This document shows, one piece after another, positions 22,324 through 43,521 of a DNA stretch of 64,000 nt (position 1 is its first letter; each line of letters starts with the position of its first letter). Made by a program: the position numbers and the translations under genes. The stretch covers positions 1,116,001 through 1,180,000 of the forward strand of contig NZ_CP024047.1 of NCBI RefSeq assembly GCF_003430825.1, written 5' to 3'. The notes under the pieces were generated by a model. That model was not told the DNA's origin and did no database searches. It saw only the letters and a program-made list of their open reading frames with translations. This DNA comes from Natrarchaeobaculum sulfurireducens (GTDB lineage: Archaea; Halobacteriota; Halobacteria; Halobacteriales; Natrialbaceae).

Positions 22324-22622
22324 TATACTTCCCCTCCGTTCAGTATTGGATGAGTTTCGTGTTCATTTCTTGTTTCCCGAAAGAATCTGCTGTACTCATC
22401 GGGGTCAATTCTGCAGGATGGCTGTAACCACATTTTGTGACTCATCTTGTTACAGTTCTGCCGGCTATTCGTCTTCCAAACAACATTGGTCACTGTGCTG
22501 GCGATTTTTCTATTATCGCGCTCTGACGATGGAGCAACGATTGAGCTGCAACTTACAGTCGAACTATCCCCGGTCGGTAGCTCTACAAGATATCTACAAG
22601 CAGAGGTCGACTTAGTCATCAT
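22320..22622 (-). CDS. Small unknown protein inside the recombinase operon
   Basis: 100 residues starting MMTKSTSACRYLVELPTG. The start overlaps the end of the upstream recombinase by 11 bp and the stop overlaps the next gene by 4 bp (ATGA), which is strong operon geometry and the main reason to accept it. It has four Cys (ACRY, VSCSS, QNCNKMS, PSCRID), a basic centre and an acidic end. No family recognised. It could be a DNA-binding accessory protein, but this is a guess. Confidence 0.55.
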   Translation of the reverse strand: MMTKSTSACRYLVELPTGDSSTVSCSSIVAPSSERDNRKIASTVTNVVWKTNSRQNCNKMSHKMWLQPSCRIDPDEYSRFFRETRNEHETHPILNGGEVY

Positions 22623-25661: not shown

Positions 25662-26599
25662 GGCTCTGGTGAATCGCCAGACTGCGTCGAGTTGATCCGT
25701 CAGAACTAGGGAGTTGAAGCGGGAAACGGCGGATGGTTCATGTCCAAAATTTCCCGCTTCACTGGGAAGGTCGTGACGTTGGCTAAAAGTGCTGTTGGTG
25801 GCCGAGGCGAATCCGCCGCCCCGCAAGGTGGCGGCGGATTCGCCGACTACGCCGTCGTTTCTCTGCATTGTCTGCGGATTTACTTGGAGAAATCCTACCG
25901 CGAAGCGCTCGATCTCTTGAGCGAGATGCCACAAATACTGGCGGAGATCGGCCTTGAGAAGGCCGATCTCCCTGATCACTCGACGCTAGTGAAAGCGTTT
26001 GACAGGACCAAGATGGAAGTCTGGCGAGTGCTGTTGCGCCTGTCGGCGCAACTGCACGAGCCATCTGGTCATGCAGCGATGGACGCGACGTTTTTCGACC
26101 GCGAAAACGCCAGCAAACACTACTGCCGCCGGACAAATTACCGGGTTCAGACGCTCAAAACAACCGCTCTCGTCGATACAGCGTCACAAGCTGTCCTCGA
26201 CGTTCATTGCACAACCGAGAAACGTCACGACACGCAGATCGGCTGGCAACTCGCCCGCCGCAACGCGGGCGAGTTGCACAGCCTTGCCGCCGACAAAGGT
26301 TACGACTGGCAACGATTACGTGAGAAACTCCGAGAAGAGGGCGTCAGACCGCTGATCAAGCATCGAGAGTTCCGCCCCATCGATCACGCGCATAACGCGC
26401 GGATCGATGAGACTCTTTACGGCCAGAGAGCGTTGTCTAAGACCGTTTTCTCGGTGATCAAGCGCACGCTCGGCGATGCCGTGCGTGCGCGAAGCTGGTA
26501 TCGTGAGTTCCGTGAAATCGTTCTGATGTGTGTCGTCTACAACATCAAGCGTGCCGTCAACTAGCCAAATCAAGTGCCGTATGGCGATTCACCACGGCC
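25662..26599 (+). mobile_element. IS5-family insertion sequence (938 bp) with 8-bp target duplication
   Basis: Terminal inverted repeats of 18 bp: left GGCTCTGGTGAATCGCCA (25662-25679), right reverse complement GGCCGTGGTGAATCGCCA (26582-26599), 16 of 18 identical. The flanks carry an exact 8-bp direct duplication CATTTCAC (25654-25661 and 26600-26607), the length reported for ISH1-like elements. The intact duplication shows simple insertion without later rearrangement. Confidence 0.9.
25740..26564 (+). CDS. IS5-family transposase, apparent catalytic Glu to Lys change
   Basis: 274 residues starting MSKISRFTGKVVTLAKSAVG, complete in length. The DDE layout is visible: first D in AAMDATFFDRENASKHY, second D in SLAADKGYDW, and the third block in YGQRALSKTVFSVIKRTLGD. 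In this block the family normally has Glu before T-x-F-S (ETVFS); here it is Lys (codon AAG at the GAG position). If that reading is right, the transposase is inactive though otherwise intact. The element's ends are preserved, so it could still be moved in trans. Confidence 0.88.
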   Translation: MSKISRFTGKVVTLAKSAVGGRGESAAPQGGGGFADYAVVSLHCLRIYLEKSYREALDLLSEMPQILAEIGLEKADLPDHSTLVKAFDRTKMEVWRVLLRLSAQLHEPSGHAAMDATFFDRENASKHYCRRTNYRVQTLKTTALVDTASQAVLDVHCTTEKRHDTQIGWQLARRNAGELHSLAADKGYDWQRLREKLREEGVRPLIKHREFRPIDHAHNARIDETLYGQRALSKTVFSVIKRTLGDAVRARSWYREFREIVLMCVVYNIKRAVN

Positions 26600-26654: not shown

Positions 26655-29600
26655 GCTATTATTTGTTTGCTAGATTTTTCTCCGTCGCGACGCCACCCCG
26701 CGGTGAGGTAGTCGCGCCTCGATGTTTCAATCCCGTGCTAGGTTTTCTCTCCGTCGCGACTCTCGGTAGTGACAACTAAGACCGCACTCCGAAGTTTCAA
26801 TCCCGTGCTGGGTTTTCTCTCCGTCGCGACTCACGTCGCCAATTGTCCACGCAATATCCATTAACTATGTTTCAATCCCGTGCTGGGTTTTCTCTCCGTC
26901 GCGACTCACGTCTCGACCGATAGCCGGCGCTCGACCTGCGGGTTTCAATCCCGTGCTGGGTTTTCTCTCCGTCGCGACATGGACTCGAATCACATCAAAG
27001 CGATTCTGAACGCTGCGTTTCAATCCCGTGCTGGGTTTTCTCTCCGTCGCGACGGTCGACAGACCTCCGTGATTCTCGAGAGACAAGTTTCAATCCCGTG
27101 CTGGGTTTTCTCTCCGTCGCGACCGTTCGCGAGCGTGTGGGTGAGTGGTGCGAGGACCGTGTTTCAATCCCGTGCTGGGTTTTCTCTCCGTCGCGACCTA
27201 TCCCTCGGCGTACGACGGCGCACGCGGGCGCTACGTTTCAATCCCGTGCTGGGTTTTCTCTCCGTCGCGACATCGAAGCGGAACAGGAAGTCGAGCAGGC
27301 ATACATCGTTTCAATCCCGTGCTGGGTTTTCTCTCCGTCGCGACACGCTGCCGGCGAACTGGCGTCTCGCGACGGCCGAGGGTTTCAATCCCGTGCTGGG
27401 TTTTCTCTCCGTCGCGACAGCGTGATACCCAATGAATACAATCGAAAGTCGCAATGTTTCAATCCCGTGCTGGGTTTTCTCTCCGTCGCGACCGCCGGAC
27501 CTGAGCGCGCTTCGGCTGCAGGATAGTTTCAATCCCGTGCTGGGTTTTCTCTCCGTCGCGACCTGGCCGCTCTGGGGGGGTGTGAACCGTGCCTTTTCGT
27601 TTCAATCCCGTGCTGGGTTTTCTCTCCGTCGCGACATGACGAGTGATCTGGGCCATCGTTGCTCTGGAAAGTTTCAATCCCGTGCTGGGTTTTCTCTCCG
27701 TCGCGACAGGTCTACGAAAATGCAAGCCAGGCTCCGTCAGAAAGTTTCAATCCCGTGCTGGGTTTTCTCTCCGTCGCGACGTGACTCTCAGCGTGTCTTC
27801 GGTATGGTCCGACACTGTTTCAATCCCGTGCTGGGTTTTCTCTCCGTCGCGACCGAGCCGGTCCTCGACGGCGTCCTGCAGATCCTCTTGTTTCAATCCC
27901 GTGCTGGGTTTTCTCTCCGTCGCGACCTTGGGAACTAGGTTACAGGGCCGGATACCACAATGGAGTTTCAATCCCGTGCTGGGTTTTCTCTCCGTCGCGA
28001 CACGGTCGACGTCCAGGGCGATGTCTACTGGGACACGTTTCAATCCCGTGCTGGGTTTTCTCTCCGTCGCGACGACTTCGCGGAACTTGAAGTGACCAAA
28101 GATCAGCTTGTTTCAATCCCGTGCTGGGTTTTCTCTCCGTCGCGACCGACGGCACGACCGGCCAGGCGGCGAAGTACGGCGGTTTCAATCCCGTGCTGGG
28201 TTTTCTCTCCGTCGCGACCGGACACGATCGAGGCGACGTCCACATCCTCTTTCGGTTTCAATCCCGTGCTGGGTTTTCTCTCCGTCGCGACCGAGTCCGT
28301 TGCCTATCCGAACAGCGCTGCAAGAGCGTTTCAATCCCGTGCTGGGTTTTCTCTCCGTCGCGACCTATCGCTGGCGTCAAACTACGTTATGGGAATACTG
28401 TTTCAATCCCGTGCTGGGTTTTCTCTCCGTCGCGACGAGCGACGGGGTCGTCTACTCTGCGAGTTTGGATGAGTTTCAATCCCGTGCTGGGTTTTCTCTC
28501 CGTCGCGACCGGCGGGCACGCCGGATACGCTAACCTCAAACCCACCGTTTCAATCCCGTGCTGGGTTTTCTCTCCGTCGCGACATCTCGGCGTCTCGATC
28601 GCCGTCCATGTGGACGCTCAGTTTCAATCCCGTGCTGGGTTTTCTCTCCGTCGCGACCTCGTAGCGTCGTCTTCGGGCGTCGCCGTGCTGATATGTTTCA
28701 ATCCCGTGCTGGGTTTTCTCTCCGTCGCGACCTTCACAGAATTGAACGAGTGGGAGTTCGAGCACGAGTTTCAATCCCGTGCTGGGTTTTCTCTCCGTCG
28801 CGACAGTCTGGAACGCAGCCTCGGAAGGTCACTCGATGGACGTTTCAATCCCGTGCTGGGTTTTCTCTCCGTCGCGACCGTCCGTGTCTTGTTCAAGCGT
28901 TCTTGGCGTGACAGACTGTTTCAATCCCGTGCTGGGTTTTCTCTCCGTCGCGACCGGTCTATCTGCTTGATACCGAGGCCGATTCGGTGCTGTTTCAATC
29001 CCGTGCTGGGTTTTCTCTCCGTCGCGACCTGGCGACTACGACGAAGGCGAGGGCTACCTCGTTGAGTTTCAATCCCGTGCTGGGTTTTCTCTCCGTCGCG
29101 ACGATCCTCTGGACTGAGAGCGAGACGATTTACTACGTGTTTCAATCCCGTGCTGGGTTTTCTCTCCGTCGCGACAACCTTGTGGGTCTGTGTCGGCAGA
29201 TCGCCGTTTCGGTTTCAATCCCGTGCTGGGTTTTCTCTCCGTCGCGACGGTTCGCAAAGGGTCTGGTTCGAGGGGCTATCGCTGTGTTTCAATCCCGTGC
29301 TGGGTTTTCTCTCCGTCGCGACCCAAACAAGGAGAAACGGGCTTGGGACTCGAACTTGGTTTCAATCCCGTGCTGGGTTTTCTCTCCGTCGCGACGCTCT
29401 AACGCGGATTGTTCTGAGAGGCTGGTTGACAGTTTCAATCCCGTGCTGGGTTTTCTCTCCGTCGCGACCGTCGACGACCTCGAGGCCGAGATCGAGGGAC
29501 AGCGAGTGTTTCAATCCCGTGCTGGGTTTTCTCTCCGTCGCGACGTCCTCACTATCGTCGAACAGCGACCGTGACGTGAGTTTCAATCCCGTGCTGGGTT

Positions 29601-30123
29601 TTCTCTCCGTCGCGACTCCCGCACTCGGGGCACTCGTCGACGTCGTCGCCGAGTTTCAATCCCGTGCTGGGTTTTCTCTCCGTCGCGACGACATCGTTTA
29701 AGAACTCGTCAATAGCGTCTGGCTGTTTCAATCCCGTGCTGGGTTTTCTCTCCGTCGCGACATCAGAAATTGCCTCAACGATCGACGTCCCAAAGAGTTT
29801 CAATCCCGTGCTGGGTTTTCTCTCCGTCGCGACGAAGCGCCGCTTATGCGACCGAAAGACTCCGACAAGTTTCAATCCCGTGCTGGGTTTTCTCTCCGTC
29901 GCGACCGATCGAGGGTGACGCGGGCCAGACGATCGCGACGTTTCAATCCCGTGCTGGGTTTTCTCTCCGTCGCGACAAAAGAGACCCTTCGGACTCTGTC
30001 GGGAGTCGAACGTTTCAATCCCGTGCTGGGTTTTCTCTCCGTCGCGACACCAGCAGATGGTCCCCGAAGACACTCGCGTCTGGCTAGTTTCAATCCCGTG
30101 CTGGGTTTTCTCTCCGTCGCGAC
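26655..30123 (-). CRISPR. CRISPR array 1: 48 repeats, 47 spacers, 37-bp repeat
   Basis: In crRNA sense (minus strand) the repeat starts GTCGCGACGGAGAG and ends CACGGGATTGAAAC; units recur every 69-75 bp. I counted 48 repeat units from 26655 to 30123. The unit at the low-coordinate end (26655-26691) keeps only its GTCGCGAC-proximal third, and the next (26724) has one substitution; the rest are identical by eye. Decay at that end, and the leader-like sequence at 30124-30240 next to cas2, set the transcription direction as leftward. The 3' handle ATTGAAAC is shared with array 2. Confidence 0.97.
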
Positions 30124-30240
30124 AGGGGGTTAACATCGGTGTAAAAGGTAAATAAGCGTTCCTCAACTCGTGATCTAGTACCAGTTGTTCGTGGATAGGG
30201 GCTGTCCACGGACTTAATAAAGGTCCACGAAGGCTCCCAG
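30124..30240 (-). promoter_or_regulatory. Leader of CRISPR array 1
   Basis: Lies between cas2 and the first repeat of array 1. Read on the minus strand, it matches the array 2 leader over its whole 106-bp length at many positions: CGTGGA at 30229-30224 and 30210-30205, TCCACG at 30195-30190, then AACGCTT and finally TTAACCCCCT directly abutting the repeat. AACGCTTATTTAC, about 37 bp from the repeat, is a candidate TATA region. The CGTGGA/TCCACG pair also forms an inverted repeat. Confidence 0.85.
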
Positions 30241-30513
30241 TCAAATCACGTTCGAAGATTTGCCTGGTTGATTCGCACCAAGGTCCGTCGTTGCGTCCTG
30301 GCAGGCGTTACAGAGGCGATATATCCGGATTCGGTCACCATCAGACGGATCGATATGGGACTCGAGTTCATCCTCAAGTTCGACACGGTCAGTTTTTGAG
30401 ACCTCAATTTCGAACACGCTGTACTGTTTCCATGCGCCGTATCGCTCGAGGGTGCGGTATACGCGTCGTCGGTTTGCATCGCCGCTGATGTCGTAGGCAA
30501 TGGCGAGTCGCAT
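30241..30513 (-). CDS. cas2: Cas2 adaptation endonuclease subunit
   Basis: 90 residues from the ATG at 30513 (MRLAIAYDISGDANRRRVYRTLERYGAWKQYSVFEIEV), the standard Cas2 ferredoxin-like beginning with the conserved Asp after the first strand (AYDIS). The longer frame to 30555 would overlap cas1 and lacks homology. It is the last gene of the cas operon, one base after cas1, and its stop borders the leader of array 1. Cas2 dimer bridges Cas1 dimers in the spacer-integration complex. Confidence 0.95.
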   Translation of the reverse strand: MRLAIAYDISGDANRRRVYRTLERYGAWKQYSVFEIEVSKTDRVELEDELESHIDPSDGDRIRIYRLCNACQDATTDLGANQPGKSSNVI

Positions 30514-30514
30514 C

Positions 30515-31510
30515 TTATTTCGTGAAAGTGAGAGAATGGTACATCTCGAGTTCATCGGTGATTGCCTTTCGGAGTAGGATTGCCTGCTGTCTGACCGCCT
30601 TTCGGCGCGTGACAGTATACTCGAAGTGAGGATGAGTCAACTCCTCGTTCATGTAGTTCTCGAACTTCTCGAGGTATATTTTGAAGGCGTCGTCACTCAG
30701 CCGATTGTCTTTCCGGAAGTCTTCGTGATCAATCACGCCACGGTTGACCAGGCGCACGACGAAGGCGTCACAAAAGATTGGGCGAAACTCCTCCTGGAGG
30801 TCGAGTGCGAGCGAGGGACGACCGTGGCGGTCGGCGTGTAACACGCCGAGGAACGGGTCGAGGTTGTACTGGCGAAGCGCCGACAGAACCTCGTTTTTCA
30901 TGAAGACGTAGGTTAGCGACAACAGTGAGTTAATGTGGTCCTCGGGTGGTCGCTTTGTCCGCTTCTCGAATGTCCAGCCATCGACGAGCGTCTCGTCGAG
31001 AAGATGGAAATATCGCTCTGCGGCCTCACCCTCTGTCCCACGGAGGTCGTCTTTCGTCGTGTCGGACTCTGCCCGAACGCCGAGGTCTTTTAGTACGTCT
31101 GTCCCACGGACGCCTTTCCGCGAGAGGAGTGTCCGTGCGTTGCGAATTTTGCCAGCGATCATTTGCTGAGCAATGGCGAGTTCTTCATCTCTCGAGAGGT
31201 CGTATTGCGCCCGTCGAACTTCAGCGATCGTATTCTTCTCGGGGACGAAGCTCCCTCGATACTTGCCGTGCTGGGTGAAGTAGTTGAGGACGATCCCGTG
31301 TTCATTTGCTCGAGCGACAAAGGGCGTACTGAAGTTGACACCCCCGAAGACGTTGATCGTATCAAGTTTCTCAATCGGGAACGAAGCCAGCTCACCCTCG
31401 TCGCCGTCAACGTCCCATACTACGATTCTACCACCGTCGACCTGAACCTGTGCGCCTTGTCTGGTCACGTAGATGACCGACTCGTCAAACATTCCTTCCG
31501 GCGGTTTCAT
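30515..31510 (-). CDS. cas1: Cas1 integrase
   Basis: 331 residues. The Cas1 fold is clear: N-terminal beta domain (SVIYVTRQGAQVQVDGGRIVVW; FPIEKLDTINVFGGVNFSTPF) and the catalytic helical domain with Glu in RGTEGEAAERYFHLL, His in FLGVLHADRHGRPSLALDLQEEFRP and the acidic residue at its end. Start at 31510 overlaps the cas4 stop by 4 bp. Together with Cas4 and Cas2 it forms the adaptation module. Confidence 0.97.
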   Translation of the reverse strand: MKPPEGMFDESVIYVTRQGAQVQVDGGRIVVWDVDGDEGELASFPIEKLDTINVFGGVNFSTPFVARANEHGIVLNYFTQHGKYRGSFVPEKNTIAEVRRAQYDLSRDEELAIAQQMIAGKIRNARTLLSRKGVRGTDVLKDLGVRAESDTTKDDLRGTEGEAAERYFHLLDETLVDGWTFEKRTKRPPEDHINSLLSLTYVFMKNEVLSALRQYNLDPFLGVLHADRHGRPSLALDLQEEFRPIFCDAFVVRLVNRGVIDHEDFRKDNRLSDDAFKIYLEKFENYMNEELTHPHFEYTVTRRKAVRQQAILLRKAITDELEMYHSLTFTK

Positions 31511-32100
31511 ATTCGACCCTCCCAGCCCGTTCCGCGGACCTTCTTAGGCTCGAGTCGGGCTGTTTCTTCCGGCAGGCAGTATTCACGTGCGGAACATGCC
31601 TCGCACTTTTTCGGGTTGTCGGTAAACGGTGGGATTGAGTCGACAGTCATAGACTGCATTGCATCGATCTGTTCTCGGACTGTTTCGCGGTGATCTTCTG
31701 TGATTGGTACATGCATTCGCTGGTCGGTTTCATAGAGGTAGATCGCACCTTGCCGGACTGGTTCGTCGAGATGATCCTCAAGAAGCATACAGTAGCCTGC
31801 GAGCTGTACTTCGTCGCTCTTGTAGTAATCACCGCTCTCTGCTCGTTTTCGTTCGACTGGGACAGTTCGACCGTTTTCAAGATCAAGAACATCGATCTTC
31901 CCTTTGAGGCCAAGGCGTTCGGACTCGAGGTAGAGTTCATTCAGCCAGTTACCCCGTTCAGACTGGTTCTCGTGTTTCGTTTTTCCCTCGATCCGCTCGT
32001 AGTTGCGCCCTTGCGTGTCGTAGAAGTGGAGATACCAGTACCGACGCGGGCAGTACGCGTGCTGGTTCAAGTCGGACACGTTGACCAATTCCTCGCTCAT
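31507..32100 (-). CDS. cas4: Cas4 nuclease
   Basis: 197 residues. Iron-sulfur Cys: one in NQHAYCPRRYWYLHF near the N-terminus and three in KKCEACSAREYC near the C-terminus. RecB-like motifs: GKIDVLDLENGRTVPVERKRA (D and E-x-K) and DEVQLAGYCMLL (QxxxY). In adaptation complexes Cas4 trims prespacers and selects the PAM side. Overlaps cas3 by 4 bp and cas1 by 4 bp. Confidence 0.95.
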   Translation of the reverse strand: MSEELVNVSDLNQHAYCPRRYWYLHFYDTQGRNYERIEGKTKHENQSERGNWLNELYLESERLGLKGKIDVLDLENGRTVPVERKRAESGDYYKSDEVQLAGYCMLLEDHLDEPVRQGAIYLYETDQRMHVPITEDHRETVREQIDAMQSMTVDSIPPFTDNPKKCEACSAREYCLPEETARLEPKKVRGTGWEGRI

Positions 32101-33995
32101 ATCACTCGCTGGGTGATGTCGATCGTTGGCGGTCCATTGCGGCCCGAATCGATCTCAATCTCGTAGCTTGCGGTCGTAATGCGGCTTGGAACGACAGCGT
32201 TTGTGATTTGTATGACACGGAAGAACCGATGTAAGAGGTCCGTATTAACCTCAAACTCGTCGCTTAACTCGAGTTGATCGATCTGACGATGAATCTTCGT
32301 CTGGAGGAGGTCCTCAATCTCGATTGTTGGCTTGTCGTACCGTGTCGGCTCTGTTTCATATTCGGGAAGTCGTGCTGTTACTGGTGAGAGTCTATCGTCG
32401 TCCGATGGTTCGAGAACGAGAATATCGTCGTTTTCCACGTGCGAGATGTCGTAGTGGCGAAGCGTCGTCGTCAGATCGTAGGTCGTCACACCGAGTCGAT
32501 CGCCTCGTGGGTATTTGATCGATGCCGGTAACGATTGTCCACGGAGTCCACGAAATACTTGGAAGCAGTGTTCTGTGAACTGCAACAGCTTGGCTTCCGG
32601 GTCGTTCTCCTGGTACTTTCCGGGACTGAACCCGTCTTTAATCTCGCCGATCTCCCGTTCGATGTTCGCGATAAATCCACGCCAACGATCATATCGCTCG
32701 ATGTTCGCCTCGAAGTCTTCTCGCAACTCCTCGTTGAACCATCCTGAGCTGTTCTCTCGGACCGAAATTGCGTAGGCCGCTCGAAAACCAACGAGGTCAG
32801 AGAGCCAGTCGTGGTTCATCTCGGTTGCCTCGAGACCCTCGTAAACCTGGGAAGCGAACGTGGGAAAGTCGACATCGTCACCCCACGAACCCTGACCAAG
32901 TCCGTAGAGGTGGACTGTCGCTTCGGATTCTCGACCGGCACGGCCAAATCGCTGAAGGAAGGCGCTCGCGGATCGTGGACTTTCCATGTACTGTGTCGTG
33001 ATGTCGTAGTCCAGCCCGACTTCGCCCTTACTCGTTGTATTGAGCACGTAGAACTCCTCACTGTCGAGATCGACCGACTCGTCGTTCGTGTCGAACCCGT
33101 TATCCTTGACGGTATGTTCGTAGACAACCGGATACTCGTCGTGCAAGAACTGGTGGAACTTGTTGCTGTCTCGTGCGCTGTTGAACACGACAACAGCGTG
33201 TGGTTCGTCGTAACTGCTTGCTGATTCGATTTCGTCCCGAAGTGCCGTGGCAACGTCTTCACGCTGATCCAGTAACTTCTGTTCCTCGTGTCGAACGACT
33301 TTAACGGCCTGTCGAAACCGATCGCCATTTTCGACGTAGTCGGCGTCGATATCGTAAAGATTGAGACCGACTCGCTCGCGCAAGAAGTTAACGAAGTCCT
33401 CGTTTGGTGTTGCTGAAGCAAGTAGGATTTTTGGATCCGGTCGGCGTTCCTCGAGTATCTTTATTTGGAGTAACAACCCGCTCGCAGCGAGCGCGTCGTA
33501 GAAGTGAAACTCGTCATAGACGATTGCATCGAATTGGTCAAAAAACCGCATCGGCTCACCGCCTTGGTACATAGCCTGGATCACGGCCTGTAGAATGTCT
33601 GGGTTCGTGAGAACGACCTCATGGTCAGCAGCGTACGTATTCACGTACTGGAGGAGACTTTCAGTCCGTTCATGTCCGTGTCCATCCAGAGTATTCCCAT
33701 TGAGAACAGCCACCGAAATCCCATCGTCCTCAAATCGCTCGCGTTGTTGTCTTAACAGAGCGTTTGTCGGATAGACGAGCAACGACATTTCTCGTGAGTC
33801 GATGAGTTCGTAGAACGTGGCCGTCTTTCCTGCCCCAGTTGGTGCTCGAACGACAGCAACGGGTTCCGTCCCGTCGTGAATCCACTCTACAACACGGTTC
33901 TGGAACGCACGAGCGTATTCAAATCCGCGCTCCTCAAGTGCGGGTTCCGGCGGTTCCGTCGCGAGAGACGCACCAGCTACTTCGAACTGATTCAT
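32097..33995 (-). CDS. cas3: Type I-D Cas3 helicase (Cas3', without HD domain)
   Basis: 632 residues of superfamily-2 helicase: Walker A RAPTGAGKT (50-58), DEFH box (161-164) within IVYDEFHFYDALAASG, SAT motif in LLASATPNEDF, and motif VI FLQRFGRAGRES. No HD phosphohydrolase is present; in type I-D the HD nuclease is carried by Cas10d, which fits. Its start overlaps the csc1 stop by one base (TGATG). It unwinds target DNA during interference. Confidence 0.94.
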   Translation of the reverse strand: MNQFEVAGASLATEPPEPALEERGFEYARAFQNRVVEWIHDGTEPVAVVRAPTGAGKTATFYELIDSREMSLLVYPTNALLRQQRERFEDDGISVAVLNGNTLDGHGHERTESLLQYVNTYAADHEVVLTNPDILQAVIQAMYQGGEPMRFFDQFDAIVYDEFHFYDALAASGLLLQIKILEERRPDPKILLASATPNEDFVNFLRERVGLNLYDIDADYVENGDRFRQAVKVVRHEEQKLLDQREDVATALRDEIESASSYDEPHAVVVFNSARDSNKFHQFLHDEYPVVYEHTVKDNGFDTNDESVDLDSEEFYVLNTTSKGEVGLDYDITTQYMESPRSASAFLQRFGRAGRESEATVHLYGLGQGSWGDDVDFPTFASQVYEGLEATEMNHDWLSDLVGFRAAYAISVRENSSGWFNEELREDFEANIERYDRWRGFIANIEREIGEIKDGFSPGKYQENDPEAKLLQFTEHCFQVFRGLRGQSLPASIKYPRGDRLGVTTYDLTTTLRHYDISHVENDDILVLEPSDDDRLSPVTARLPEYETEPTRYDKPTIEIEDLLQTKIHRQIDQLELSDEFEVNTDLLHRFFRVIQITNAVVPSRITTASYEIEIDSGRNGPPTIDITQRVI

Positions 33996-34696
33996 CAGAG
34001 AACCTCTGGCAAGATCCAGTCACGGACGAAGCCCGGGTCCGGTCCGACGAAGTGCTGTAATCGCGGGTCGTTGCCTCGCTTGAACGACTGACTTCGTTCC
34101 ATCAACTTTGCGAGAAGTTCGTCGGAGAGACCATAGACCTCCGAAAGGAGGTACTTGTTCAAGACCAGCGTATCCAGATCCGAGGTTTTCGCCCGGATTT
34201 CACCAGTCTGCTTGATTCCCATCCGGAAGAAAGGCCGATCTGGAAGCTCATCTTCGCTCCAGACGGTAAATTCGAAGGTCGAACCAGGCGTAATTCCGAC
34301 GTAGTTACGCATCGTCTGGTAGGCTGCCCCCGAGTTCTCGAGAACCGAAGGCACCGACTTCGTCCCGGCGACCTGATCCGCGATGTCCGGGTCGTTCGTC
34401 GTGAAATGTCGCTCTGATCGAAAGTCAGTACTTCGGAATGTCCGTTCGTCCGTCTGGACAGCGACTGGCCGCATGTCCGTGACGAAAAACGACGTATCCG
34501 CGAGGTGTGAATAGTCTGGCGAAGTCGCTTCGTCTCCGAGTTCGGCATACCGTTTTTCCATACCGAAGTACCGGTATCCGAGGGCATGCATGAGTGCCGT
34601 TGCCGAGAGCGTCGGCTGTGTTCGGATCGCCCGCCCTTCCGAACTGGAGTAAAAGAGCGGGGCGTACAACGTTGCTTCGAACGTCTGTTCAATCAT
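33995..34696 (-). CDS. csc1: Csc1 (Cas5d-type subunit of I-D Cascade)
   Basis: 233 residues from the ATG at 34696. The start MIEQTFEATLYAPLFYSSSE is typical of Csc1, followed by TQPTLSATALMHALGYRYFG, and later VGITPGSTFEFTVW and LPDRPFFRMGIKQTGEIRA. It overlaps the csc2 stop by 8 bp; an upstream ATG at 34840 would lie inside csc2 and is rejected. In type I-D it caps the crRNA 5' handle, the role of Cas5. Confidence 0.9.
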   Translation of the reverse strand: MIEQTFEATLYAPLFYSSSEGRAIRTQPTLSATALMHALGYRYFGMEKRYAELGDEATSPDYSHLADTSFFVTDMRPVAVQTDERTFRSTDFRSERHFTTNDPDIADQVAGTKSVPSVLENSGAAYQTMRNYVGITPGSTFEFTVWSEDELPDRPFFRMGIKQTGEIRAKTSDLDTLVLNKYLLSEVYGLSDELLAKLMERSQSFKRGNDPRLQHFVGPDPGFVRDWILPEVL

Positions 34697-35630
34697 CGTC
34701 CAGGAGTTTGCTTTTCGCCCCCTCCAGCAGACTTTCGAACTCCTCGCGTAGCACCTCGTCAGCGTCGTCGGCTTCTCTCGCAGCGACTGCCTGGAGTCGC
34801 TCGAACCAATCAGGTGCGTCGTTGGCATCTTCAAAGTCACCGTAGACGTCCCAGTCAGTACGGCTCACGTCCGAGACGTACTCGCCGATACTCGCACGAA
34901 GGTCGTCACCCTCGTCGTGATACTCCATCAGGAGCTCCCCAGTCGACAGTGACGTGTCGTGGTTTCCAAGGATGATGCCGAGCACATCGTTCCGGATGTT
35001 CCGCCCTGTCCGTGTCTCTCGAGCCCCGTACTTGCCAGTGTTCAGGATATTGTGTAGGACATACAGCAACATCGGACCCGTCGCCGCCTCGAGCGTGACG
35101 AAGTGTACGAGATCATTGCCGGGTTGGACTTTCACGAAGTCGAAGAGAGCTTCGGATTGTCCGCCGTCCTCGTTCCTCATCGTTCCCGATTCGTAGACGG
35201 CGTTTCGCGTCTCCTTGTTCATCAGGTCGTACTCGTCGGTGGTGTACGTGTACCCCTCGACGACCCGAGATTTGATCGCGAAGTCCTGATCGCCCGTTCC
35301 GGCAAGTCCGTAGGTGATTGTCCCGACGTTGAGCGATTTCTCGAGCGTTTCGGGTTCGTTGTACGCGTACTCTTCGTGGACAAACTCCTCGTCCAGGCCG
35401 CGAAGCAACGCAAGCCCTGTAAGTCGTTCCTTGCTCGTGAATTTCTCACCGTTTACCTGGGCGTGAAGCTTGTCGCCGAACTCCTGTGTCTCCGCTCGAT
35501 CGTGGTTCGAATTACGGAACAGCGTCGGCTCAGTCACATCTCGTTTTACGACGAGGGTGACGGACGGCTTCTCTTTTCGGTAGATATCGAACGATTCGAC
35601 GAGACCTTTGTCGGGGTATTCGAGTGTCAT
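34689..35630 (-). CDS. csc2: Csc2 (Cas7-type backbone subunit of I-D Cascade)
   Basis: 313 residues. Csc2-like sequence: VTLVVKRDVTEPTLFRNSN near the N-terminus, the glycine-rich loop region LNVGTITYGLAGTGDQDFAIKSRVVEGYTYT, FVKVQPGNDLVHFVTLEAATGPMLLYVLHNIL, and KYGARETRTGRNIRNDVLGIILG. It binds the crRNA spacer as a filament. The acidic C-terminus is a haloarchaeal trait. Overlaps cas10d by 4 bp and csc1 by 8 bp. Confidence 0.93.
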   Translation of the reverse strand: MTLEYPDKGLVESFDIYRKEKPSVTLVVKRDVTEPTLFRNSNHDRAETQEFGDKLHAQVNGEKFTSKERLTGLALLRGLDEEFVHEEYAYNEPETLEKSLNVGTITYGLAGTGDQDFAIKSRVVEGYTYTTDEYDLMNKETRNAVYESGTMRNEDGGQSEALFDFVKVQPGNDLVHFVTLEAATGPMLLYVLHNILNTGKYGARETRTGRNIRNDVLGIILGNHDTSLSTGELLMEYHDEGDDLRASIGEYVSDVSRTDWDVYGDFEDANDAPDWFERLQAVAAREADDADEVLREEFESLLEGAKSKLLDDD

Positions 35631-36121
35631 TGGAGATCTTGAAGTGCTTGTTCGTATGCGTAGTAGTACGAGTTGACGAGCGCGTCTTCCCAGTCCGAGA
35701 GCTTCTTCAGGTCATACAGGTCGTTCTCGAGGAGATATGACCGAATCGCCTCGACGAACGCCTCTGCCTGCTCAGGTGTCGCATTTCCTGCGTAGTCTTC
35801 GCGATCGGCTGCAGCGTACACCTGGCTCTCAACGTACTCGACGAGCCGATCGTCATCCATTTGCTGGTTCTTTCCGCTGAGGAACGCATCGAGTGCCTCG
35901 CGGAACACTTTCGTTTTCTTATACTTGCTGTCGTACTGTTGGCCGAACAGGTCGATTCCTCGTTCGGCGACGGTTTTCATGTCCATGAGTGCATCTTCAT
36001 GATAAGTTTCGAAATACTCTCGAAGATCCGAGAGCCTGACCGCATTGTCGTGGTTGACGACTGCGAAGTCGGCGATGCTGTGGAAGGTGTCGCGATCGAG
36101 ATGGAGGTACTGATTGCTCAT
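35627..36121 (-). CDS. cas11d: Probable Cas11d small subunit from an internal start in cas10d
   Basis: An in-frame ATG at 36121 inside cas10d (MSNQYLHLDRDTFHSIADFA) is preceded by AGGAGG at 36132-36127, a perfect anti-16S match, five bases before the ATG. It would give a 164-residue helical product sharing the C-terminus of Cas10d. Internal translation of a Cas11-like small subunit from the large-subunit gene is established for type I-D systems; here the ribosome-binding site is seen in the sequence, and the product itself is inferred. Confidence 0.65.
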   Translation of the reverse strand: MSNQYLHLDRDTFHSIADFAVVNHDNAVRLSDLREYFETYHEDALMDMKTVAERGIDLFGQQYDSKYKKTKVFREALDAFLSGKNQQMDDDRLVEYVESQVYAAADREDYAGNATPEQAEAFVEAIRSYLLENDLYDLKKLSDWEDALVNSYYYAYEQALQDLQ

Positions 36122-38056
36122 GTTCGCCTCCTGCCCGATCATGCTCATGATCTTGAATAGCTGGAGTGTACGCCGGAGATGTGACTCCGACTGATTCCCG
36201 TCAACGAATTCGGGAAGCGGCCCGAATCGCTCGGCTTCGTCCAGCCCGAGGAGTTCTTGTGGTCGGGTGGCCTCCTCGTCTTTAAAGACCGTATCCGCGC
36301 TTTCGAAGCGCGTGAATGGTCGTCCGACGACCACCTTCATCCCGGATTCTCGGGCTGCCTCCATTACCTGCCGGATAACTGCCATCCGGTGGTTCTCGTT
36401 TAGAACGTAGACGGGCTGGAGGAAATACTGAGGTTTCACCAACTCAGCTTTCACTTCAGGATCGTCCAGTTCGTCACTGTCTCCTTGGACGATATTGCCG
36501 ACCCGTTGGCTTCGGACCCGGACATCTCCGAGGAAGTCATCGAAGTAAAAGTACGCAATCTCGAGTGAATTGTTGGTACTCACATCATGTTGCTCGCAGA
36601 GGTGTGAGAGAAGGGCATACTCGAGATTACACACTTCACAGATAGACTTGTACTTTGCATGTGGGGGGACACGCCGAGAGTACTCTTGCGTTCGGTAGAC
36701 TGCACTGAGCCCCTTCTGATACTTTGTGTCCGTTTCCGCGCCACAGAGAAAACACATCTCGTCCTTCGAGCCAAGAGTTTGGGAAACCCGTCCATCGAAG
36801 AATCGATCGACGACGGCACCGATCGCGTCTGTTTCCGGCTCGAGATCGTCGTGAAGCTCGGGGCGGACATCTGCGGCGAAAGTCTCGAGGAAGCCGGCGT
36901 GTTCCTCGTGGTGCTGAACGAGATACGCGATAAAGTGGAGTTTGACCTTCTGGGGGCCTTGATCTTCTTTGATTTGATTATACGCGTCTTGGACTGCTGG
37001 ATCATCAAACTCTGACTTTCCATCGATGTAGATGCCCTTCGCCAATACCGGAAAGTATCCGTCAAACTCCTCAGGTATATGCTCAAACGGTTCGACGCCT
37101 GCGGATCCCCGCCCGAGAAGCTCGCGGAACGCGTCAGCTATCTTCTGTTTTTTCTCTTCAACTGGAATGCTGACCTCAGCCAAGATATCGTAGTCGAACG
37201 AATTCCAGTTGAGCTTGCAGTCAAATTCGAAGTCAGCACTGATTCGTTTCGGAACCCGCTCTGCAACAGCGGTCCTGAGAGTCGATCGGTCGATCGGGTC
37301 GCCGAGATAGACGATCGCGGCCGGTGAACTACCGACAACGACTCCATACGGGTCCTCGCCCGTTTCACCTGCAATAACCTCCTTTGCTGTGGCGAGGAGT
37401 GTATCGTTCAAGATCGGCTGCTCGAGTTGCGTGAACGTAACGAGATGGACATCATCCGCCCCCATCAGTGTCTGAAGTTGTTCATACGCACCGTCGACAC
37501 CCTCACGGAGTGCAACCGACGCAGTGCTATCTCCGATTCGACAGTACCGCTCGAGTCCGTTGAAATCGGTGTTGATACCTCGTGTTTCGGTACTATTCTC
37601 GGTCGTTTCGGTTCGCTGAACAAGATACTGGAGATCGTCGCGATATCCCTCACCGAGGAACTCTTCTATTCCGAACGGATCGGCTTTACGTAACTCTCCG
37701 ATTTTGTCAGGTTCCGGGTCAAAGTACCAGTCGAACGCTTCTGCGGTATTTCCATCGACGTCAGCTCCGTGTGCCTCACGAACAAATTTGTCCGTATCGT
37801 GAAGAGCGAGAGCGGATGCAAGCACACGAATGTCTTCACTATACTCCTCGAACAGATCTTCATCCGGTCCGACAGCCTCATAGACGAACGCATTCACGCC
37901 AATCGTTACTGCGTTCAGGATATGGGCAGCCAGCGACGAGTTCGCGCTAGAATCGACTTTTGCGTCGTATTGACCTGCTGCATCAATAACGTTCGAGTAT
38001 AGGTCCGTACTCCCGACAAGCGTTTCGTGAGCCTCTCGAGCAGCTTCTGGGTTCAT
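35627..38056 (-). CDS. cas10d: Cas10d/Csc3 large subunit with HD nuclease domain
   Basis: 809 residues from the ATG at 38056, which overlaps the cas6 stop by 4 bp. The N-terminal HD domain shows H45 (SLAAHILNAVTIG) and HD at 86-87 (ALALHDTDKFV). A zinc-finger-like CFLCGAETD...SICEVCNLEY lies in the middle. No GGDD cyclase motif was seen, as expected of Cas10d. The helical C-terminus matches a Cas11-like region and contains an internal start (see Cas11d). It is the signature protein of type I-D: large Cascade subunit plus the nuclease. Confidence 0.95.
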   Translation of the reverse strand: MNPEAAREAHETLVGSTDLYSNVIDAAGQYDAKVDSSANSSLAAHILNAVTIGVNAFVYEAVGPDEDLFEEYSEDIRVLASALALHDTDKFVREAHGADVDGNTAEAFDWYFDPEPDKIGELRKADPFGIEEFLGEGYRDDLQYLVQRTETTENSTETRGINTDFNGLERYCRIGDSTASVALREGVDGAYEQLQTLMGADDVHLVTFTQLEQPILNDTLLATAKEVIAGETGEDPYGVVVGSSPAAIVYLGDPIDRSTLRTAVAERVPKRISADFEFDCKLNWNSFDYDILAEVSIPVEEKKQKIADAFRELLGRGSAGVEPFEHIPEEFDGYFPVLAKGIYIDGKSEFDDPAVQDAYNQIKEDQGPQKVKLHFIAYLVQHHEEHAGFLETFAADVRPELHDDLEPETDAIGAVVDRFFDGRVSQTLGSKDEMCFLCGAETDTKYQKGLSAVYRTQEYSRRVPPHAKYKSICEVCNLEYALLSHLCEQHDVSTNNSLEIAYFYFDDFLGDVRVRSQRVGNIVQGDSDELDDPEVKAELVKPQYFLQPVYVLNENHRMAVIRQVMEAARESGMKVVVGRPFTRFESADTVFKDEEATRPQELLGLDEAERFGPLPEFVDGNQSESHLRRTLQLFKIMSMIGQEANMSNQYLHLDRDTFHSIADFAVVNHDNAVRLSDLREYFETYHEDALMDMKTVAERGIDLFGQQYDSKYKKTKVFREALDAFLSGKNQQMDDDRLVEYVESQVYAAADREDYAGNATPEQAEAFVEAIRSYLLENDLYDLKKLSDWEDALVNSYYYAYEQALQDLQ

Positions 38057-38916
38057 GCTGTCACCTCCACACTCACGTTCCCGCACCCTCGAGCCACGGC
38101 GCTTCCGACGCCACTATACTCACCGAACAACGCGAGTGCCACAACGGCATTCTGGACGGACTCGCTTGCATCCTTGAACGCATAGGTACACTCGCCGGTG
38201 AATCCCTGCTTGAACAGATTTCGCGTCTCGCCATCGCCGTTTTTCACGCGATTAACAAGCACGCTATGCGTCCGATACGTACGTGCGTTGGGCTTCTCGA
38301 TTACCGACGACAGTAACGCATCTCGAGTCAACTCGACTTCCAGCTCGTCAGGCGCAGTCTGGTTCCACTTATTGAGTAGCGATCGGAACACCGCGACACG
38401 ATGAGGGAACATCGTCGTCACGTCATCGGCCTCTTCGAGACACGTCGCCGTCCGGAATCGGATCGTGACCGAAGGATCGTTGAGATCGCTCGCACGCTTG
38501 AGCAACTCCTCGTGGCTCACGTTTTCGCTCTCGAACGATTCCACCCGGAGCGTGCCATTGGTGAGCTCGGTCGTCGATCCTTCAAGCACGAGTTCTTTGA
38601 CGAGCGCCTGGAACACTGCCTCGTCATCGGAATCGACGATTCCAAGCGTGACCTCGTATGTCTCATCTGGACGGACCGACTTGTGATGGGGTCGGTCGCT
38701 ATCACCGAAGACGCCATGGAGGCCGCTGTTGTGCAAGCTCCCAAGCGGAGAATCGTGGACGCGCTTGCTCACTGATTCGTCGGCGTCGTCGAGAACTCCA
38801 AGTAGTGCCCCGTAGAGCGGATAGCCGTCCGACTTCGGGACTGGAAACCGTTCGATCGGCCGAACGGTAAGCGTGACACGTCTGGCACGCGAAACTTTTT
38901 CTGTTAGTTCTCCCAT
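38053..38916 (-). CDS. cas6: Cas6 crRNA endonuclease
   Basis: 287 residues from the ATG at 38916 (MGELTEKVSRARRVTLTVRP). The sequence has two RAMP-like halves and ends with the Gly-rich loop FGEYSGVGSAVARGCGNVSVEV, the Cas6 hallmark. A candidate catalytic His is in FPHRVAVFRSLL or HNSGLHGVFG; the sequence alone does not decide. It leads the cas operon. A TTTATTT element about 34 bp upstream (38947-38956, reverse) is a plausible TATA box. It cleaves both repeat types, which share the handle ATTGAAAC. Confidence 0.92.
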   Translation of the reverse strand: MGELTEKVSRARRVTLTVRPIERFPVPKSDGYPLYGALLGVLDDADESVSKRVHDSPLGSLHNSGLHGVFGDSDRPHHKSVRPDETYEVTLGIVDSDDEAVFQALVKELVLEGSTTELTNGTLRVESFESENVSHEELLKRASDLNDPSVTIRFRTATCLEEADDVTTMFPHRVAVFRSLLNKWNQTAPDELEVELTRDALLSSVIEKPNARTYRTHSVLVNRVKNGDGETRNLFKQGFTGECTYAFKDASESVQNAVVALALFGEYSGVGSAVARGCGNVSVEVTA

Positions 38917-39062
38917 GTGATCGATACGAACTAACCGTCGGAGACGTAACAAATAAAGTTGTCGGCTATTTGAAACAGTTGCGCGAAAAAGCAATCTTCG
39001 CCCAACGGTTTCACCTTTCTGCAACGGTGGACTTTTCCTGCTCGTCCTTGATCATGTTCGAT

Positions 39063-39716
39063 ATGCGTACGTACGTCTCCCCAATCGGCTACAACTCGAC
39101 CAGTGTCGTTCGTCCAGTTCTCAGTCGTGGGGTCGATCCGGGAGACGAAATTTGCTTGCTCCGTCCGAACGAGGAATCGGACGAACAACGGGCGACAGAA
39201 GCAATCGAGGACATCAAACGACTTCTCAACGAGATTGAGCCGGACGTGACGCTCACACTCAAGCGAATTACCTACGACGACTATCCGACTGCTGTACTTG
39301 AATGCAGCGACATCATCACTGATGCGAATGGTGACGTTATCGTCAATCTCAGTGGTGGTGCCCGCGATATCCTTGTCCCGCTGACGACCGCGTCGTTTGT
39401 ACACAGCGAACAGACCAATGCGACGCTGTCGTTCAGCGATATCGATGGTTCTGTTCGCGAACTCGAGTCGCCTGCGATGACAGCGTCAGTTCCGGATAAT
39501 GTCGCTTCGACACTGGCCATGATCGTCGATCAGAACGAATGTGTTTCCGTACCAACCCTCACTGAGGAGTTGGATCGGTCGAAGAGTTCGATTACGCGTC
39601 ACATAAGTAGTCTTGAAGAACAAGGACTTGTTCAAGCTGAGAAGCACGGTCGAACGAAAATCGTCCAATCGACGTTTGCCGGAGAATTGTATCTTCGCGG
39701 TCGCGGTAGCCAGTGA
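39063..39716 (+). CDS. csa3: Csa3 CARF-HTH transcription regulator
   Basis: 217 residues from the ATG at 39063 (MRTYVSPIGYNSTSVVRPVL), the family's usual beginning; the ATG at 39054 would add three residues. The N-terminal CARF domain has SPIGYNSTSVVRPVLSRG, LLRPNEESDEQRATEAIEDI and NLSGGARDILVPLTTASF; the C-terminal winged helix has SVPTLTEELDRSKSSITRHISSLEEQGLVQAE. Csa3 proteins regulate cas and adaptation genes in response to cyclic oligoadenylate-type signals. It is divergent from cas6 and its stop borders the leader of array 2. Confidence 0.94.
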   Translation: MRTYVSPIGYNSTSVVRPVLSRGVDPGDEICLLRPNEESDEQRATEAIEDIKRLLNEIEPDVTLTLKRITYDDYPTAVLECSDIITDANGDVIVNLSGGARDILVPLTTASFVHSEQTNATLSFSDIDGSVRELESPAMTASVPDNVASTLAMIVDQNECVSVPTLTEELDRSKSSITRHISSLEEQGLVQAEKHGRTKIVQSTFAGELYLRGRGSQ

Positions 39717-39826
39717 GCTTCATGGACTTTTTTAAAATCCGTGGACAGCCCCGGTCCATGAACGATAGGCAAACTATCGCTTGATGAAAAACGCTTTTAG
39801 CGCTGATCAGTGTATCTTAACCCCCT
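39717..39826 (+). promoter_or_regulatory. Leader of CRISPR array 2
   Basis: Between csa3 and the first repeat. It carries CATGGA (39721-39726), CGTGGA (39740-39745) and TCCATG (39755-39760), then AACGCTT and TTAACCCCCT next to the repeat. The spacing of all of these equals that in the leader of array 1, although the two leaders face away from each other across the cas genes. Confidence 0.85.
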
Positions 39827-42345
39827 GTCGCAGGACACCGAAAACCCAGAACGGGATTGAAACGTTGCGGAGTCTTCGGGCGGGACGAGGCCAAGTCCCA
39901 GTCGCAGGACACCGAAAACCCAGAACGGGATTGAAACCGTCGGTTGTGGATCGGTGTCGGTCATGCCTTCGGGATGTCGCAGGACACCGAAAACCCAGAA
40001 CGGGATTGAAACTCGCTGCTGAGCTTTCGTGATGATCCTCGTTGCGATGTCGCAGGACACCGAAAACCCAGAACGGGATTGAAACACTGTCGTCTCGTAC
40101 GTCTCGATCTCTTCGAACGGCGTCGCAGGACACCGAAAACCCAGAACGGGATTGAAACCGGTCGACACTCACGTCGTCGTCGATCCACGCCGGCTGTCGC
40201 AGGACACCGAAAACCCAGAACGGGATTGAAACTTGGATCTCTGCCCCGCTTGGATCGTCTAATCTGGCGTCGCAGGACACCGAAAACCCAGAACGGGATT
40301 GAAACCCGGACGCTTGCGGATCACGACCTACTGGACAAGGCCGTCGCAGGACACCGAAAACCCAGAACGGGATTGAAACCGTTTGGCGTCACGATCGACG
40401 AAGTTGCTCTTGTGGCGTCGCAGGACACCGAAAACCCAGAACGGGATTGAAACTCGGCTCTGGTAGCCACATGCATGATAATCAGTACGAGTCGCAGGAC
40501 ACCGAAAACCCAGAACGGGATTGAAACGGGCCGCTGTTAGAGGACGGCCCGACGCCCGGCAGGTCGCAGGACACCGAAAACCCAGAACGGGATTGAAACA
40601 CGTTCGACGGCACACGCATCGACGTGGCAGTCACGTCGCAGGACACCGAAAACCCAGAACGGGATTGAAACCGCCCCAGTCGTCCGGGTCGTAGTCGTCG
40701 ATTTCGTTGTCGCAGGACACCGAAAACCCAGAACGGGATTGAAACCGAGTGCCCTTGTGCTCCGAACTCCGAAGCGTGGTCGCAGGACACCGAAAACCCA
40801 GAACGGGATTGAAACCGAGTCGATAGATTCGCCTTCCGAGACGGCCATATTGTCGCAGGACACCGAAAACCCAGAACGGGATTGAAACGCCGTGCACACG
40901 GACGACCTCGTGGACGCGGTCGACGGGTCGCAGGACACCGAAAACCCAGAACGGGATTGAAACTTCGGAGCGTTCGCGTTCCCGATCACATTCGCCGTGT
41001 CGCAGGACACCGAAAACCCAGAACGGGATTGAAACAGCGTACGGTTCTCGTAGCTCACCTCGAGTTCGAGCGGTCGCAGGACACCGAAAACCCAGAACGG
41101 GATTGAAACTGTATTCACTTTCTGGTTTGTCCGGCGGTGGGTTTGTCGCAGGACACCGAAAACCCAGAACGGGATTGAAACCGCGTGCGCTCCTGCCGTT
41201 GCTCGAGAACACCGAGGAGTCGCAGGACACCGAAAACCCAGAACGGGATTGAAACGGACGTCTGGTCGGTGATGGAGCCGATCTTCAACCACTCGTCGCA
41301 GGACACCGAAAACCCAGAACGGGATTGAAACATTCCGATGGGATTCATTCAGTACCGAGCGGGGCCGTCGCAGGACACCGAAAACCCAGAACGGGATTGA
41401 AACCGCGCCGATCACTCCCGAGCACTAAGTGAGCCGCTTGTCGCAGGACACCGAAAACCCAGAACGGGATTGAAACCCGCCGGCCGCGACCGTTCCCGTC
41501 CTCGTCTCCATGTCGCAGGACACCGAAAACCCAGAACGGGATTGAAACTGTGCCCCTCCGAGCGTTCAGACTGTCCCGGTCAAGTCGCAGGACACCGAAA
41601 ACCCAGAACGGGATTGAAACTTAATGACGGCGGATGGGTAGATGTTTCATCGGACAGTCGCAGGACACCGAAAACCCAGAACGGGATTGAAACTCCGGCC
41701 GCTCGCGCTCGTCGTCGGTCTCGTCGCCGTGTCGCAGGACACCGAAAACCCAGAACGGGATTGAAACATGACCGACGAGATCGTCATCGGGCGGTCGCGT
41801 CGCAGGACACCGAAAACCCAGAACGGGATTGAAACAGCGCGTAATGCAGTCCCTACTCGAGCGGGCGATGGCGTCGCAGGACACCGAAAACCCAGAACGG
41901 GATTGAAACGAGCTACCGCGTCCGAGACTTTGAGGATGCGGAGGGTCGCAGGACACCGAAAACCCAGAACGGGATTGAAACACCAGTATATCGGAACCAT
42001 CACCGCCTACAAACCGTGGGTCGCAGGACACCGAAAACCCAGAACGGGATTGAAACCAGTTAGGCTGGTGGGATCGGACCGGACGTCCCGCGGTCGCAGG
42101 ACACCGAAAACCCAGAACGGGATTGAAACGGGTTGGCCAGTGGATTTCCGGCCGATCGTTTCGAGTCGCAGGACACCGAAAACCCAGAACGGGATTGAAA
42201 CGGTCAGACCTCGCTCTTTCATCGCCTGAACCTCAGGTCGTAGGACACCGAAAACCCAGAACGGGATTGAAACAAAGTAGAGATCCACTGTGCTTCTCGA
42301 GCGACAGCGTCGCAGGACACCGAAAACCCAGAACGGGATTGAAAT
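39827..42345 (+). CRISPR. CRISPR array 2: 35 repeats, 34 spacers, 37-bp repeat
   Basis: The repeat starts GTCGCAGGACACCG and ends GAACGGGATTGAAAC; units recur every 68-76 bp, average 73. Counted starts run from 39827 to 42309. The last two repeats show decay: C to T near the start at 42237 and the terminal C replaced by T at 42345, so the leader end is at 39826 and transcription is rightward. It differs from the array 1 repeat at 8 of 37 positions, mostly in the first third. Confidence 0.97.
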
Positions 42346-42405: not shown

Positions 42406-43521
42406 TTATCCCATTCGATCTAAGGCGTCGCGTCGGTCTTCAACCGGGGCTTGGTCGTATTTCATCGTCGTCTGTTCGCACTGATGCCGTAGTTGCATTT
42501 GTGCTGCTGCCAATCCTTCTTCTCGAGTCATGTACGTTCCTACGGAGTGACGAATCGTGTACCAACTAATCGTCCGATTCGTTGTATCAATGTCGGCAAT
42601 TTCGCAAAGCTGTTGAAGGAGATATTTGAGCGACGACGACCGATACGTATTCCCTTCACGGGTTAACCAGAGTGTGTCTGTTTCGTCGTAATCCAGGTAC
42701 GAGTCTCGCTCGTTGATCCATCGGTGGAGAATATCGGCAGTCCGTGAGTGTAAACTCACAACCCAGTTGTCTCGATTTTTCGAACTTTCATCTTTGGGAA
42801 TCCGCAACACCTGATTGTCCACATCAACCCAGTACGTACGCGCTCGAGCGACTTCGATTGGTCGTAATCCTGTATCCAAACTTGTCGCGACGAGCGACGG
42901 AATTTTCCAGCCGTTTGCTCGCTCCCAGTCTTCGGAAGTCACCGCCGATTTTGGTTTCTCAAACCGCTGTGCGAGATATGCACGCCACCGGTCACGACCC
43001 GATGGTGAGAGATCGCCGTATCCTGGTATACTCCCATACTCAAGTGCCGCATCACGAAGCAGCCCTCGTTCCTCGCGAGTAAAGAAGTCCTTTGGTTGAG
43101 CCGCAGAATTTGACGCTGAAAACGTGATTGATGGGGTCCATTCTGCTATCCCATGCTCGTGCGTGCGCCATTTGAACAGCATCTGAACGGCTTTCTGATG
43201 GTTTGATTTATCAGCATTACTGGTATTTCGATAGGCGAGATCCTTCAGATAGGCGTCAGCATGTCTGTGGTCCGGAGTAGATACGTATCGATCCTCAGTC
43301 TCCCAAACCCATCGGTAAAACATGTCCATGCGACTGGCGCGTGCTCGAACAGTTTCAAAAGCGTACCCCTCTGCATGATCAGGATCTTTGCCGAAATGGA
43401 GTAACCATCGAAGACAATCTCTCCGCTGTGACCGATAGTCAACCAACTGTCGCTCGTTCAGCGTGGCCTCTGACGGTCCCGTAACTAACGTGATCTCGTC
43501 TAAGTCAGTCATCGAAATCAC
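42406..43521 (-). CDS. Tyrosine integrase of the island (tRNA-proximal)
   Basis: 371 residues starting MISMTDLDEITLVTGPSEA at 43521; the ATG at 43512 (MTDLDEITL) is an alternative. Catalytic set: Arg in SLDTGLRPIEVARA, Lys region in RIPKDESSKNRDNW, the x-x-R box in WYTIRHSVGTYMT, His in QLRHQCEQTT, Tyr in MKYDQAP. It lies about 285 bp inside the island from tRNA-Glu and is transcribed away from the tRNA. It is intact and resembles the 415-aa integrase at 22612, with which it shares motif wording. Most likely the enzyme that recombines the 41-bp att repeats. Confidence 0.9.
   Translation of the reverse strand: MISMTDLDEITLVTGPSEATLNERQLVDYRSQRRDCLRWLLHFGKDPDHAEGYAFETVRARASRMDMFYRWVWETEDRYVSTPDHRHADAYLKDLAYRNTSNADKSNHQKAVQMLFKWRTHEHGIAEWTPSITFSASNSAAQPKDFFTREERGLLRDAALEYGSIPGYGDLSPSGRDRWRAYLAQRFEKPKSAVTSEDWERANGWKIPSLVATSLDTGLRPIEVARARTYWVDVDNQVLRIPKDESSKNRDNWVVSLHSRTADILHRWINERDSYLDYDETDTLWLTREGNTYRSSSLKYLLQQLCEIADIDTTNRTISWYTIRHSVGTYMTREEGLAAAQMQLRHQCEQTTMKYDQAPVEDRRDALDRMG

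Follow-up and report, generated by a model that had tools for sequence, protein, structure and literature searches.

Leaders of a haloarchaeal type I-D CRISPR locus share a gapless layout whose outer inverted motif pair recurs in type I-B leaders and may serve spacer integration

In the type I-A system of Sulfolobus islandicus, the leader of the clustered regularly interspaced short palindromic repeats (CRISPR) array is occupied by Csa3a at a leader-distal motif and by Cas1 at its proximal end, and mutation of the distal motif cuts spacer acquisition (PMC9456107), while at cas promoters Csa3a occupies imperfect inverted repeats close to the B recognition element (BRE) and TATA box (PMC4333418). 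Cyanobacterial I-D leaders are described as having three motifs, and a helper factor was proposed (PMC10212523). In I-E and I-F leaders, integration host factor (IHF) and an upstream integrase-anchoring site at fixed distance position Cas1-Cas2 at the junction (PMC10212523, PMC9456107). Array C of Haloferax volcanii acquires no spacers; the identity of its leader to those of the active arrays is 75% (PMC7521656). The locus considered here lies in a 64,000-nt stretch of Natrarchaeobaculum sulfurireducens (NZ_CP024047.1, positions 1,116,001 to 1,180,000; hereafter the window), where cas6-cas10d-csc2-csc1-cas3'-cas4-cas1-cas2 on the minus strand and csa3 on the plus strand stand between two outward-facing arrays, each with a leader that occupies essentially the entire interval from a gene stop (cas2 for leader A, csa3 for leader B) to the first repeat.

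Counted from the repeat, both leaders have C(A/G)TGGA at -106, CGTGGA at -87, TCCA(C/T)G at -72, AACGCTT at -37 and TTAACCCCCT at -10, which bears out exactly the identical distances listed in the initial annotation. The two align without gaps over 137 bp and are 66% identical over 110 bp; identity reaches 84% (31/37) in the distal boxes, against 11/23 positions of the linker (-64..-42), and conservation of the boxes therefore exceeds that of the remaining leader. When pairs of I-D boxes were scored in 19 unrelated loci of about 20 kb (about 380 kb in all), the top pair did not exceed 19.2 bits, against 27-34 bits in control leaders, and chance is therefore not an adequate source of the pair.

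Further type I-D loci were collected by searching 391 haloarchaeal genomes for Csc2 and by a GTDB scan. In all, 97 I-D-type leaders at 60 loci were counted, 74 of them cas-linked and 23 orphan. A MAFFT alignment of 32 I-D leaders runs to 116 columns with zero gaps, and its distal part consists of cTTCRTSGACC (-109..-99), yTTWTnAA (-98..-91), STGTACAGC (-86..-78) and GTCSAYGAA (-73..-65), followed by 23 unconserved bp, AGAAAnnTTTAT (-40..-29), T.T (-22, -20) and AT.T..ACCCCCT (-13..-1); upstream of -109, conservation falls to background. A leader model built on sequence only finds matches in 48 of the 391 genomes (two weakly) and 33 of 86 genera, and I-D-type leaders are present in the lineage of the window, in canonical I-D loci and ahead of scattered mini-arrays. 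The window leaders thus belong, by their sequence, to a haloarchaeal I-D leader type with a gapless layout of about 109 bp. The initial annotation had expected one motif of three equal sites, and had named leaders lacking them, or freely varying spacing, as grounds for giving the motif up; on alignment of the other haloarchaeal I-D leaders neither was found, and the two outer sites and their spacing recur. The middle CGTGGA does not, being usually TGTACAG-like, with the TGGAC form (GTGGACAG in the window) in 4/60 loci, and three equal half-sites were rejected on this ground. What is conserved is an inverted pair of outer sites, with an element of another kind in the middle. The half-site centres of the pair, TTCRTSGAC ... 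GTCSAYGAA, are 35 bp apart, and each half-site independently fits T-W-C-R-T-S-G-A-C, the two being mutually inverse with the same degeneracy. Position 2 switches on both sides jointly in Halorubrum-type leaders and those of genome G174 (TAC...GTA), and no clean correspondence was seen between this TTC/TAC change and the recognition-helix residues of Csa3. As a separate observation, several scattered mini-arrays of 1-7 repeats with near-intact I-D-type leaders occur in one genus (L121-L129 in genomes G360 and G337; L098 in G182), with two repeat types, one starting CTTTCAACTGTGCCAGC.

Forty I-B loci were fetched as a control, and the 30 leaders analysed from them carry, unexpectedly, the same inverted pair at about 35-bp spacing; the I-B leader of Haloarcula hispanica and the leader of Haloferax alexandrinus have the pair too. 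The core of box 3 lies at -64 in 28/30 leaders, against -74 in I-D, a shift of 10 bp, or one helical turn, toward the repeat. With scores learned from I-D only, the best I-B pair lies between -99 and -101 in 30/30 leaders, and 21/30 score above the 99.9% level obtained by shuffling the leaders. The sequence model of the I-D leader covers its full length and misses I-B leaders, so that a conclusion from this model alone that they are without the motif was wrong. In I-B leaders, the TATA/TGTACAG block is replaced by sequence resembling CCCGGGGG...GGGTATTG, and the half-sites have a subtype flavour, TTCCRTCGACC in I-B and TTCRTSGACC in I-D. The I-B loci have cas1, cas2 and cas4, and csa3 is found in 0/40 of them; a Csa3 homologue at E<=1e-20 is absent from 36/40 of the genomes. 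Within I-B, half-site spacing had no relation to spacer length.

When the half-sites were placed by score and not by alignment, they stood at exactly -109/-74 in 69/74 cas-linked leaders. Both leaders of locus L045 have half-sites too diverged for scoring, yet aligned in register, and the deviation at L109 is a one-base difference in the assumed repeat start. The only genuine spacing changes among cas-linked leaders are at L092, which has a deletion of both cas1 and cas4, and at L114, which retains a cas1 fragment and has lost cas4, so that spacing changed in 2/4 leaders with cas1/cas4 loss against 0/70 others (Fisher p ~0.002, computed by hand, leaders of the same locus not being independent); among orphan leaders it changed in 3/23. 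Because the spacing loosened where cas1/cas4 were lost, these leaders suggest selection on spacing for adaptation. Another locus, L115 (G130:C74, 661-7592), has two outward arrays with I-D leader geometry around a Cst-type I-B operon of cas6, an unknown gene of 607 aa, cst2, cas5t and cas3, without cas1, cas2, cas4 or csa3.

We give about an even chance to the reading that the spacer-integration machinery docks at the outer inverted pair, a leader-distal site set in helical phase. The binder would most likely be the system's own Cas1-Cas2(-Cas4) complex and, next, a host DNA-bending helper; because the site keeps a constant distance, in helical phase, to the leader-repeat junction, the bound complex could bend or loop the leader and so bring the integrase up to the first repeat. 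The ACCCCCT at the junction would be the end contacted by the integrase, and the probable promoter of the array is AGAAAnnTTTAT at -40..-29. I-D leaders would have gained the extra block between the half-sites (TATA-like plus TGTACAG), at which Csa3 or transcription factors may act. A wider proposal, which we consider rather unlikely, is that I-B and I-D haloarchaeal integrases share one ancient, helically phased docking code, the inverted pair about 35 bp apart; since this spacing is close to the spacer length of about 36 bp in both types, the two-fold symmetric Cas1-Cas2 could grip both half-sites and then reach the junction without IHF.

Several points weigh against docking of the integrase. 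The distance from box 1 to the box 3 core in I-B leaders is 31-33 bp, not strictly 31 as in I-D; L092 and L114 may be decaying as whole loci; and G130 keeps the pair beside its Cst-type I-B operon, with neither Cas1d nor Csa3 found in its assembly. In the I-A precedent, moreover, it is Csa3a and not Cas1 that occupies the leader-distal motif (PMC9456107). In favour of docking, H. hispanica, whose leader has the pair, no longer adapts once the array is removed together with its leader (PMC10989794), though such a removal does not single out the pair. The contrast within genome G129, where the I-B leader has a canonical pair and the I-D leader has diverged half-sites, comes from one genome and from the most divergent system. 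That same contrast suggests a system-specific binder and, with the subtype-flavoured half-sites, makes us lean toward the integrase complex over a host protein. A host DNA-bending or chromatin protein that substitutes for IHF in haloarchaea and recognises the pair in either CRISPR type is in our estimate doubtful: it would suit a pair common to I-B, I-D and a Cst-type locus and kept in orphan arrays, and the 10-bp offset that preserves helical phase, and it is at odds with half-sites that differ by subtype and diverge within one genome.

We regard it as unlikely that Csa3 uses the pair as its operator, activating the arrays and passing Cas1 on to the junction in the manner of S. islandicus Csa3a. 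In all complete I-D loci the gene adjoins leader B, its product has the Csa3 fold, the motif mutated in S. islandicus is a Csa3a site, and the Csa3a consensus of the S. islandicus csa1 promoter, TTCNTAACTAAANANGGNNNGAAA, likewise starts TTC and ends GAAA (PMC4333418). A motif bound by Csa3 should be limited to genomes with Csa3, however, and the outer pair is found in I-B leaders of genomes that have none, upon which Csa3 as sole binder was dropped. The half-site was not found in the csa3/cas6 promoter region, and autoregulation of csa3/cas6 through the same box was rejected; Csa3 paralogues outside CRISPR have a different palindrome, and the box was not found in the 19 such loci scored. The bound factor put forward in the initial annotation is likely, as it agrees well with the conserved blocks, invariant distances and unconserved linkers seen across about 30 genera; of its two candidates Csa3 is unlikely as a general binder of the outer pair and Cas1-Cas2 is the better one, and Csa3 may act at the I-D-specific middle element. 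The occurrence of the pair in two subtypes argues against assigning leader motifs to Csa3 on the proximity of csa3 alone. Control of pre-CRISPR RNA synthesis by half-sites flanking a TATA box is quite improbable: the TATA-like block of I-D leaders does lie between box 1 and the middle site, and archaeal activators often bind beside BRE/TATA (PMC4333418), but no such block lies between the I-B half-sites, a second promoter-like block is closer to the repeat, absolute invariance over about 100 bp exceeds the usual needs of activation, and spacing is looser where cas1/cas4 are lost. An RNA or cruciform hairpin is exceedingly improbable; 86% of the cells are paired, against 20-47% in slid controls, and Cas1 of S. 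islandicus prefers stem-loops (PMC9456107), but the loop would be 26 nt, and the S position is paired in 18/32 leaders and unpaired in 14/32, the rate expected of independent variation on each side. Since pairing at S is lost freely while the neighbouring positions stay fixed, half-sites for a protein are indicated rather than a stem.

Compared with the described systems, the S. islandicus I-A locus resembles the present one in a leader-distal imperfect inverted motif with a leader-proximal Cas1 end, in two inversely oriented arrays (with identical leaders there) and in a nearby csa3 (PMC9456107, PMC4333418), and differs in sequence and spacing and in that the pair here extends to I-B loci and genomes without csa3. 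The Synechocystis system is likewise I-D with several conserved leader motifs, which, according to a review, raise spacer uptake and for which a bending factor was proposed; its leader is given there as 202-220 bp (PMC10212523), against about 109 bp here. The TTCRTSGAC pair was not seen when the Synechocystis pSYSA leader was read through. I-E and I-F leaders have an IHF site in place of an inverted pair. The I-B leader of H. hispanica pHH126 has the inverted pair at about 35-bp spacing in a similar fixed layout and abuts cas2, and differs in a pair 10 bp nearer the repeat, a 30-nt repeat and the lack of a TATA/TGTACAG block and of csa3. No description of the pair was found in the literature examined, which excluded H. 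hispanica leader-motif and cyanobacterial leader papers; leader-distal motifs are a known kind, and the fixed geometry spanning subtypes is provisionally new. For the question of how archaeal Cas1-Cas2 locates the leader end in the absence of IHF, a pair kept across two subtypes with a one-turn offset permits an exact and cheap test in H. hispanica, a species with established adaptation assays.

Positions of the leaders, their elements, the arrays and the cas genes in the window
Feature	Position	Strand	Remarks
Leader A	30124-30232	-	
Outer half-site 1, TTCGTGGAC, -108..-100 (A)	30223..30231	-	T-W-C-R-T-S-G-A-C in nearly all I-D leaders
TATA-like block, -98..-91 (A)	30214..30221	-	Mean 1.1 bits; absent from I-B leaders
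Middle element, GTGGACAG, -86..-79 (A)	30202..30209	-	STGTACAG in most relatives
Outer half-site 3, inverted, ATCCACGAA, -73..-65 (A)	30188..30196	-	
AGAAAnnTTTAT block, -40..-29, BRE/TATA-like, putative array promoter (A)	30152..30163	-	Mean 1.18 bits over -41..-29
Leader-proximal block, ends ACCCCCT, adjoins first repeat (A)	30124..30136	-	1.24 bits
Leader B	39718-39826	+	
Outer half-site 1, TTCATGGAC (B)	39719..39727	+	
TATA-like block (B)	39729..39736	+	
Middle element, GTGGACAG (B)	39741..39748	+	
Outer half-site 3, inverted, GTCCATGAA (B)	39754..39762	+	Perfect inverse of half-site 1
AGAAAnnTTTAT-type block, here AAAAACGCTTTT (B)	39787..39798	+	
Leader-proximal block, ends AACCCCCT (B)	39814..39826	+	
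CRISPR array 1	26724..30123	-	37-nt repeat GTCGCGACGGAGAGAAAACCCAGCACGGGATTGAAAC
CRISPR array 2	39827..42344	+	37-nt repeat GTCGCAGGACACCGAAAACCCAGAACGGGATTGAAAC
cas2	30241..30555	-	TIGR01573
cas1, type I-D family	30515..31510	-	TIGR04093, 389 bits, cut-off 385
cas4	31507..32100	-	TIGR00372
cas3' helicase, I-D family	32097..33995	-	TIGR03158, 111 bits, cut-off 69
cas5/csc1	33995..34693	-	TIGR03159, 31.0 bits, below curated cut-off 41.4
cas7/csc2	34689..35630	-	TIGR03157, 83.8 bits, cut-off 38
cas10d/csc3, divergent	35627..38056	-	TIGR03174, 19.9 bits, cut-off 60; also position, neighbours
cas6	38053..38916	-	Profile match incl. PF10040
csa3, CARF + winged helix-turn-helix regulator	39054..39716	+	Profile matches, fold

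The locus is of type I-D by its profile matches and forms a divergent lineage of that type, since Cas1, Csc2 and Cas3' pass the I-D models and Csc1 and Csc3 fall below the cut-off. The csa3 product belongs to the Csa3 family (CARF plus a MarR-like winged helix-turn-helix, with the fold of 2WTE) on the basis of its AlphaFold model, which has a predicted local distance difference test score of 92.5 and 2WTE (Csa3) as its top PDB match at a template modelling score of 0.74. Within 33995-38056 of the window, csc1 and cas10d are too diverged for the I-D cut-offs, and csa3, cas6 and cas4-cas1-cas2 are common with canonical I-D loci, from which an exchange of effectors on a common adaptation module may be read. 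Transposase and integrase-like genes flank both arrays (22612-23859, 24436-25567, 25740-26564 and 42406-43521) and may bear on the mobility of the locus; a Pfam search gave no match for 22612-23859, and 42406-43521 matches the Pfam phage integrase. Csa3-family regulators also occur distant from any array in 19 haloarchaeal loci without CRISPR arrays (L130-L148), a candidate CARF-regulated non-CRISPR defence island, in which most of the regulators stand beside very large helicase-like open reading frames of about 1,000-1,850 aa, some of them cut by the fetched ends, and many of the promoters carry an ACTGTTGCac...GGAACAGT-type palindrome.

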